From: Bradyrhizobium sp.
GTDB lineage: Bacteria > Pseudomonadota > Alphaproteobacteria > Rhizobiales > Xanthobacteraceae
NCBI RefSeq assembly: GCF_004799445.1
Contig: NZ_SSNA01000062.1
Span: 1 to 64,000 of the forward strand
Direction: 5' to 3'
Length of the DNA: 64,000 bases
Below, in pieces: positions 8,939 through 11,900 of this stretch. The first letter of the stretch is position 1; the number at the start of each line of letters is the position of its first letter. A program made the position numbers and the translations under genes. The notes below the pieces were generated by a model. The model had not been told where the DNA came from. It was given only the letters and a program-made list of their open reading frames with translations, and made no database searches.

Positions 8939-11900
8939 ATGGATGAAGTGATCAGGGCGAAGCGCCAACACAACAGCCAGCGCGCGATCACCATTCGCGG
9001 CGCGCGCGAACACAATCTGAAGAACATCGACGTCGAAATCCCGCGCGACAAGCTCGTGGTGTTCACGGGGTTGTCGGGCTCGGGCAAATCGTCGCTCGCC
9101 TTCGACACCATCTACGCCGAGGGACAGCGGCGCTACGTGGAATCGCTGTCGGCCTATGCGCGCCAGTTCCTGGAGATGATGCAGAAGCCCGACGTCGACC
9201 AGATCGACGGCCTGTCGCCGGCGATCTCGATCGAGCAGAAGACCACCTCGAAGAATCCGCGTTCGACCGTCGGCACCGTCACCGAGATCTACGACTACAT
9301 GCGGTTGTTGTGGGCGCGGGTCGGCGTGCCCTATTCGCCCGCCACCGGCCTGCCGATCGAAAGCCAGATCGTCTCGCAAATGGTCGACCGCGTGCTGGCG
9401 CTGCCCGAAGGCACCAGGCTTTATCTCCTGGCGCCGGTGGTGCGCGGCCGCAAGGGTGAATACAGGAAGGAACTCGCCGAATATCTCAAGAAGGGGTTCC
9501 AGCGGGTCAAGATCGACGGCACGTTCTATGAGCTCGCCGACGCGCCTACCCTCGACAAGAAATTCCCGCACGACATCGACGTCGTGGTCGACCGCATCGT
9601 GGTGCGGCCGGACATCAGCCAGCGGCTGGCGGAAAGTTTTGAAACCGCGCTGAAGCTCGCCGAAGGGCTCGCGGTGATCGAATATGCGGATGCGCCTGCC
9701 AGCGCCGACTCCGCCTCAGTTACCTCCCCCCTTGCGGGGGAGGTCGGCGCGAAGCGCCGGGAGGGGGGTAAGCCACGCGCACAGGCGTCCGGGGCCACCC
9801 CCCTCCCCGACCCTCCCCCGCAAGGGGGGAGGGAGCAGAGCGAGCCAGCGACAAAGAAAGTCGCCAAAATCCACGACAAGAGCGGGCCGGAGCGGATCCT
9901 GTTCTCGGAGAAATTCGCCTGCCCGGTGTCCGGTTTCACCATTCCGGAAATCGAGCCCCGGCTGTTCTCCTTCAACAACCCCTACGGCGCCTGCCCGGCC
10001 TGCGGCGGCCTCGGCATCGAGCAGCATATCGACGAGGACCTCGTCATTCCCGACAAGGAGCTGAGCCTGCGCAAGGGCGCGATCGCGCCATGGGCCAAAT
10101 CATCCTCGCCCTATTACATCCAGACGCTGACCGCGCTCGGCAAATTCTACAAGTTCACGCTCGATACCAAGTGGAAGGACCTGCCGAAGAAGACGCAAAA
10201 TGCGCTGCTCCATGGATCGGGAGACGACGAGATCAAGTTCTCCTACGAGGACGGTGTGCGCTCCTACGACACCAAGAAACCGTTCGAGGGCGTCATCACC
10301 AATCTCGACCGCCGCTATCGCGAGACCGAGAGCGAGTGGGCGCGCGAGGAACTCGGCAAGTATTTTTCCGACATTCCCTGCGAAGCCTGCCACGGCTATC
10401 GCCTCAAGCCGGAGGCGCTGTGCGTCAAGATCGGCGGCAAGCATATCGGCGAAATCTCCGAGCTGTCGGTGCGCCGCGCCGGCGAATGGTTCGAGACCGT
10501 GCCGAAGGCGCTCAACGCGCAGCAGAACGAGATTGCCGCCCGCGTGCTGAAGGAAATCCGCGAGCGGCTGACGTTCCTGCTCGATGTCGGCCTCAATTAC
10601 CTGACCCTGGCGCGCGCCTCGGGCACCCTGTCGGGCGGCGAGAGCCAACGCATCCGGCTGGCCTCGCAGATCGGCTCGGGGCTGACCGGCGTTCTTTATG
10701 TGCTGGACGAACCCTCGATCGGCCTGCACCAGCGCGATAATGCGCGGCTATTGGAAACCCTGAAGCGGCTGCGCGACTTGGGCAATACCGTGATCGTGGT
10801 CGAGCACGACGAGGACGCGATTCGCTTAGCTGATTATGTGCTCGACATCGGCCCCGGCGCCGGCACCCATGGCGGCCACATCGTCGCCCAGGGCACGCCG
10901 GCCGACATCATGCGCAACCCGAATTCGCTGACCGGAAAATACCTCACCGGCGAATTGTCGGTGGAAATCCCCGAGCGCCGGCCGCCGAACCATCGCCGCA
11001 CCATCAAGGTCGTCAACGCCCGCGGCAATAACCTGAAGAACGTCTCGGCGGAGATTCCGCTGGGACTGTTCACCTGCGTCACCGGCGTCTCCGGCGGTGG
11101 CAAGTCGACGCTGCTGATCGATACCCTTTACAAAGCCATCGCGCGAAAACTCAACAACGCCAGCGAAGGCGCCGCCCCGCATGACCGCATCGAGGGGCTG
11201 GAGCATATCGACAAGATCATCGACATCGACCAGTCGCCGATCGGCCGCACCCCGCGCTCGAATCCGGCGACCTATACCGGGGCGTTCACCCCGATCCGCG
11301 AATGGTTCGCCGGTCTCCCCGAGGCCAAGGCGCGCGGCTACGAGCCCGGGCGGTTCTCCTTCAACGTCAAGGGCGGCCGCTGCGAGGCCTGCGAGGGCGA
11401 CGGCGTTCTCAAGATCGAGATGCACTTTCTGCCCGACGTCTACGTCACCTGCGACGTCTGCAAGGGCAAGCGCTACAACCGCGAGACGCTGGAGGTGCTG
11501 TTCAAGGGCAAGTCGATCGCCGACGTGCTCGACATGACGGTCGAGGAAGCCGCCGAATTCTTCAAGGCGGTGCCACGGGTGCGCGAAACCTTTAAAACCT
11601 TGCATCGCGTCGGGCTGGATTACATCCATGTCGGTCAGCAGGCCACCACGCTGTCGGGCGGCGAGGCCCAGCGCGTCAAGCTGGCCAAAGAACTGTCGAA
11701 GCGCGCCACCGGGCGCACGCTCTACATCCTGGACGAGCCGACCACGGGATTGCATTTCCACGACGTCAAGAAGCTGCTCGAGGTGCTGCACGAACTGGTA
11801 TCGCAGGGAAATACCGTCGTCGTGATCGAGCACAATCTCGAGGTGATCAAGACCGCCGACTGGGTGATCGACCTCGGCCCCGAAGGCGGCGACGGCGGCG

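Follow-up and report, generated by a model that had tools for sequence, protein, structure and literature searches.

The window, that is, the whole stretch of 64,000 nucleotides analysed here, carries a uvrA gene with a palindromic sequence in it (Table 1). The gene consists of one intact open frame of 1032 aa, and its product scored 1456 bits against the NCBIfam equivalog TIGR00630 (excinuclease UvrA), for which the cut-off is 730. Among the matches listed for the genome, it is the only one of UvrA length. The inverted repeat has arms of 29 nt, which are 90% complementary and 68 nt apart, and nearly the same segment is matched by the profile of a palindromic element family, referred to as form A hereafter. 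The initial annotation had placed a near-perfect palindrome at 9719-9834, in frame in uvrA; the arms and the profile match at 9719-9836 bear this out, the peptide given for it is correct, and its coordinates are off by a few bases at most. The palindrome leaves the reading frame unbroken, as had also been claimed, and the protein is unambiguously UvrA. When the 125-nt palindrome was folded as RNA, the predicted energy was -100.3 kcal/mol, as against -62.9 +/- 4.2 kcal/mol for shuffled sequences (z = -8.8), and none of the 200 shuffles folded as well. An Rfam search of the window gave zero matches.

Table 1. Positions of uvrA, its palindrome and the in-frame inserts of other proteins. Positions refer to the window unless a locus (L) is named; C denotes a contig of the same genome
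Feature	Position	Strand	Basis or remark
uvrA	8939..12037	+	
UvrA linker slot, hypervariable, ~residues 257-310	9708..9869	+	Alignments; solved chain 2r6f
Form A palindromic element, within the UvrA frame	9719..9836	+	Family profile match
Inverted repeat, left arm	9715..9743	+	Small hairpin by itself: CCTCCCCC-CTTGC-GGGGGAGG
Inverted repeat, right arm	9812..9840	+	Inverted-repeat search
Form A in frame in HrpB helicase	L173 2022-2125 (C115)	Minus-strand gene	Frame and domains
Form B in frame in fused peptide ABC transporter protein, linker between two ATPase domains	L181 1987-2138 (C77)	Minus-strand gene	
Form B in frame in PcrA/UvrD, between helicase motifs II and III	L186 2044-2171 (C80)		
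PcrA/UvrD palindromic inserts, three families	L186 2044-2171; L288-L310; L348-L351		

The palindrome adds ~40 residues to UvrA, and most other UvrAs of Bradyrhizobium are without them. In all of the 26 Bradyrhizobium loci compared, the block is replaced by a short Lys-rich linker of the type ADAP(A/S)..EKKSDKKTAKIHDK, so that 37-43 residues are missing from the UvrAs of these relatives. Aligning 16 UvrAs shows indels of at least 3 aa at the linker and nowhere else, the protein ends excepted. These alignments (26 loci and 16 UvrAs) rule out that the block is ordinary conserved UvrA sequence, a finding that would have refuted the initial annotation. The flanking residues 248 and 316 of the window UvrA align to residues 255 and 258 of the solved UvrA 2r6f, and the isolated UvrB-interaction domain chains 3fpn and 4dfc cover 144-249 and 142-255, respectively. 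This alignment and the extent of the two chains put the insert just where the polypeptide leaves the UvrB-interaction domain, a point at which few residues are present in other bacteria. The idea, raised in the initial annotation, that the insert sits in a surface loop is thus favoured by the alignment to solved chains, and a surface turn is the probable conformation; the predicted structure gave it no support, since the AlphaFold model of UvrA (16 close sequences) had a mean pLDDT of 44 and was discarded.

Copies of the element in its own genome

Searches of the genome with form A and with a related form, B, gave 63 and 97 matches, respectively, and merging them left ~69 distinct copies. The expectation that the element would be found elsewhere in the host genome was thus confirmed, in two related forms. 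Nearly all of the ~69 copies have no conserved gene across them: an open frame spans ~20 of the 69, and recognisable domains lie on both sides in 4 only. The in-frame copies in conserved genes are those of UvrA (form A), PcrA/UvrD (form B), HrpB (form A) and the fused peptide-transporter ATPase (form B). The HrpB insert is absent from the relatives whose linker is readable, the linker there being short, while several relatives align through the insert of the fused ABC ATPase. Long open frames over seven further copies (L003, L078, L108, L160, L161, L175 and L177) contain no Pfam domains and were rejected as spurious.

A single privileged open frame of the element was also considered and rejected: among 23 form A copies, each of the six frames is open in 10-21, and among 42 form B copies, in 8-23. 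As the elements are thus often free of stop codons in several frames, harmless in-frame insertion is possible. Insertion blind to genes would put most copies in coding sequence, so the copies within genes may be the small remainder that survived.

The UvrA and PcrA slots across Bradyrhizobium

An insert in the UvrA linker was found in at least 15 of the 271 Bradyrhizobium genomes with a match, a lower bound, as forms A, C and D were the only queries and further families may be missed. By type, form A occurs at this slot in 2 genomes, form C in 6 and form D in 7. The two carriers of form A are the window genome and G178, which has a half copy that folds weakly (z = -2.3). The form C insert reads CATCCTTCGAGACGCG...CTCATCCTGAGGAGG, and form D fits the published layout of CGTC REPs, with CGTC, a 9-bp stem ATGGCCGGG starting with AT, the loop CTTGA and a CCA tail. 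A, C and D are three unrelated palindrome families at one UvrA linker. The length of the linker is a multiple of 3 in every UvrA with an insert. Forms C and D are also interspersed in their own genomes, each at ~4 places per 400 kb, with 0 in reversed controls. On the UvrA tree, 13 parsimony changes of insert type are needed, although some of the branches are weak. G207 and G145 are sister species, yet the former has C at the slot and the latter D. In the uvrA linker of G145 (L129), two more hairpins are nested in the loop of the form D palindrome, and the frame is kept. Several carriers of UvrA inserts are single-contig genomes (G093, G116, G145, G207 and G277), which argues against assembly error.

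Elsewhere in the order, long UvrA linkers were seen in 3 of the 22 other families in which both flanks could be placed (G037, G038 and G051). For G037 and G038, the linker has a strong predicted fold; repeat copies of the three inserts were not found in samples of 81-400 kb of the respective genomes.

The second slot lies in PcrA/UvrD. An insert is present in 23 of 23 Bradyrhizobium sampled, and also in B. frederickii and B. elkanii (25/25). It comprises ~45-90 extra residues between DEYQDTN..LLSQAP and KNICCVGDDDQSI, that is, between helicase motifs II and III. Among the 23, 13 inserts are of form B, 8 of the CGTCATTCCGGGG type (E) and 2 of type F, whose peptide is LPGLTRQSI..RRPGDD; type F was also found in PcrA of Rhodopseudomonas infernalis and of a Pseudorhodoplanes MAG. 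The insert is absent from 14 genomes representing 14 other families of the order. Several PcrA inserts appear to be composites in which E-like ends (RPGxPLSxVIPG) adjoin form B, a structure that would result if one element inserted into another already present. The identity of the PcrA form B insert is 0.80-0.91 to PcrA inserts of other species and 0.85-0.93 to copies in its own genome, so that the two ranges overlap. Two minor observations concern the same loop and its families. PcrA of a Hyphomicrobiales MAG and of Rhizobium alarense (L352 and L353) have unrelated-looking inserts of ~35-40 aa there, and the window itself contains, at 15420-15501 and outside long ORFs, a palindrome of type E, CGTCATTCCGGG...CCCCGGAATGACG, the type that lies within PcrA of other Bradyrhizobium.

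Origin and maintenance of the inserts

When the UvrA flanks were compared between the window and a sampled close relative (G033), dN was 0.020-0.042 and dS was 0.40-0.55. To judge from these rates, purifying selection on the protein around the insert is strong. The low dN relative to dS makes the gene look functional, and with this being the sole UvrA seen in the genome, the protein should work with the insert. For PcrA, dN/dS was ~0.4-0.8 in the inserts and 0.04-0.09 in the flanks, rough values from at most 60 codons compared per insert. They fit near-neutral protein evolution of the inserts, as for a tolerated loop. The dS values, equally rough and from at most 60 codons per insert, were lower in the inserts (0.13-0.32) than in the flanks (0.29-0.58), as would fit inserts that were replaced recently, or DNA or RNA that is itself constrained.

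These data are probably best explained by a mobile palindrome lying in frame in a permissive UvrA linker, the UvrA and PcrA/UvrD slots being occupied by tolerated selfish elements with turnover. The repeat, a GC-rich palindrome of ~100-125 bp that encodes nothing by itself, is interspersed in this Bradyrhizobium-type genome, and one copy would have entered the uvrA linker in frame at the exit of the UvrB-interaction domain. With a net length that is a multiple of three, the copy would be translated into a stretch rich in Pro, Gly and Arg, and UvrA would still work. The UvrA linker and the PcrA/UvrD loop between motifs II and III may act as permissive slots for unrelated palindrome families, and the palindromes in them would be gained, nested, replaced or exchanged between species. 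Translation of the insert in the cell, its flexibility and its near-neutrality are inferences, as is its way of moving.

The patchiness of the inserts on the UvrA tree could reflect exchange of alleles between species instead of repeated insertion. One possibility we entertain, with the odds somewhat against it, is that a small number of old insertions account for most of the pattern, homologous recombination between uvrA alleles of different species having spread or removed them; this bears on how turnover proceeds and does not conflict with the explanation above. The form C inserts of different species have the internal stretch DEDGARRSKAAKRG and the tail KKVAKIHDK in common, which looks like shared ancestry, and G207 and G145 differ not only in the insert but also in the adjacent codons (KKVAK vs KKTAK), while neighbouring segments of uvrA are 92-99% identical. 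However, the identity between G207 and G145 falls only mildly near the linker, and at least three unrelated families (A, C and D) still need separate insertions at this slot within the genus.

That the inserts have been domesticated, with the loops of UvrA and PcrA tuning nucleotide excision repair (e.g., the UvrA-UvrB handover or helicase loading) and perhaps raising mutation rates, is unlikely. Of the four conserved genes with a copy in this genome, two act in or near excision repair, the PcrA slot is occupied in every Bradyrhizobium sampled, and PMC3733652 describes REPs of other bacteria that lie within uvrABCD, recBCD and polymerase genes. On the other hand, the families that take the same slot are unrelated, as are their peptides, the PcrA inserts have a far higher dN/dS than the flanks, and most Bradyrhizobium UvrAs are free of inserts yet otherwise alike. 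The complete occupancy of the PcrA slot in the sample does exceed what mere tolerance predicts. A flexible loop of any family might alter excision repair or the helicase, so that the slots are kept filled and the hairpins are interchangeable parts; we consider this quite unlikely.

It is very doubtful that RNA or DNA structure is what maintains the hairpin, for instance by pausing ribosomes between UvrA domains or by affecting transcript stability. The predicted uvrA hairpin is very stable, and the low dS of the PcrA inserts relative to their flanks would suit such a role. Nevertheless, most relatives have no hairpin at the linker, the half-element of G178 folds weakly, and recent replacement by another copy also gives a low dS. 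A pseudogene or an assembly artefact is, like ordinary UvrA sequence, extremely improbable: the assembly is a draft in 241 contigs, but the frame is intact in the only UvrA seen and appears strongly constrained, the repeat is found throughout the genome, and analogous inserts occur in single-contig genomes.

Relation to known palindromic repeats

The best-known in-frame palindromic repeats are those of Rickettsia, for which weak selection is a frequent explanation. The likeness to the Rickettsia palindromic elements (RPEs) drawn in the initial annotation is apt as a description of behaviour: a palindrome lies in frame in the otherwise conserved ORF of uvrA, and the family occurs in several proteins (form A in UvrA and HrpB, form B in PcrA and the ABC ATPase) as well as outside genes. 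In both cases, interspersed palindromes are found in frame in unrelated proteins, to which they add a few dozen residues. The hosts of both are Alphaproteobacteria, whereas the order of Bradyrhizobium is a different one, and the Bradyrhizobium element is GC-rich and mostly outside conserved genes (4 of 69 copies inside). Unlike the Rickettsia setting, a large-genome Bradyrhizobium thus has in-frame palindromes in a core repair protein under apparently strong selection.

The uvrA palindrome belongs to a known kind, as in-frame REPs in uvrA and uvrD of other bacteria were reported in 2013. That paper (Di Nocera, De Gregorio and Rocco 2013, PMC3733652) describes in-frame GTAG/CGTC REPs in many genes, among which repair genes are prominent: uvrA of Thioalkalivibrio and O. 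terrae, uvrB of R. conorii, and genes for the UvrD/Rep helicase, recBCD and polymerases. Mutator effects of intragenic REPs were suggested there. The label of an intergenic REP/BIME-type sequence, given to the element earlier, needs correction. Form A resembles these REPs as a palindrome in frame in coding regions, including uvrA and the UvrD/Rep helicase, and as a family of many dispersed copies (69 A/B copies, 4 in conserved genes), mostly without a conserved gene across them. The published definition, in contrast, excludes it. According to that paper, REPs have a terminal GTAG or CGTC (or TGTC/CCTC) motif, and the stems of the CGTC type are 8-9 bp long, start almost invariably with AT and mostly have a CCA tail; form A is ~120 bp long and lacks the GTAG/CGTC layout. 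The start of its small hairpin (Table 1) resembles CCTC, and the hairpin has no stem starting with AT, no CGTC tag and no CCA tail. Form D, at the same UvrA slot in seven other Bradyrhizobium, corresponds to the CGTC-type REP dimers.

According to PMC3733652, only recB of two Xanthomonas has REPs at the same site, and the sites otherwise differ within a functional class; in Bradyrhizobium, several families share one slot in UvrA and one in PcrA. This sharing and the occupancy of the PcrA slot across the genus appear to be new, with the reservation that the gene list of that paper may hold a Bradyrhizobium case. Since sister species have different families in the slot, the genus is a ready comparative set for the movement of such elements, and it also bears on how new protein segments arise from selfish DNA. 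A further question is whether repair genes are favoured targets or merely contain permissive loops. The window also contains two intergenic CGTC-type REP dimers. A CGTC-type REP pair with the tails inward lies at 36720-36820, between a serS-like gene (35256-36647, -) and a tatC-like gene (36845-37669, -).
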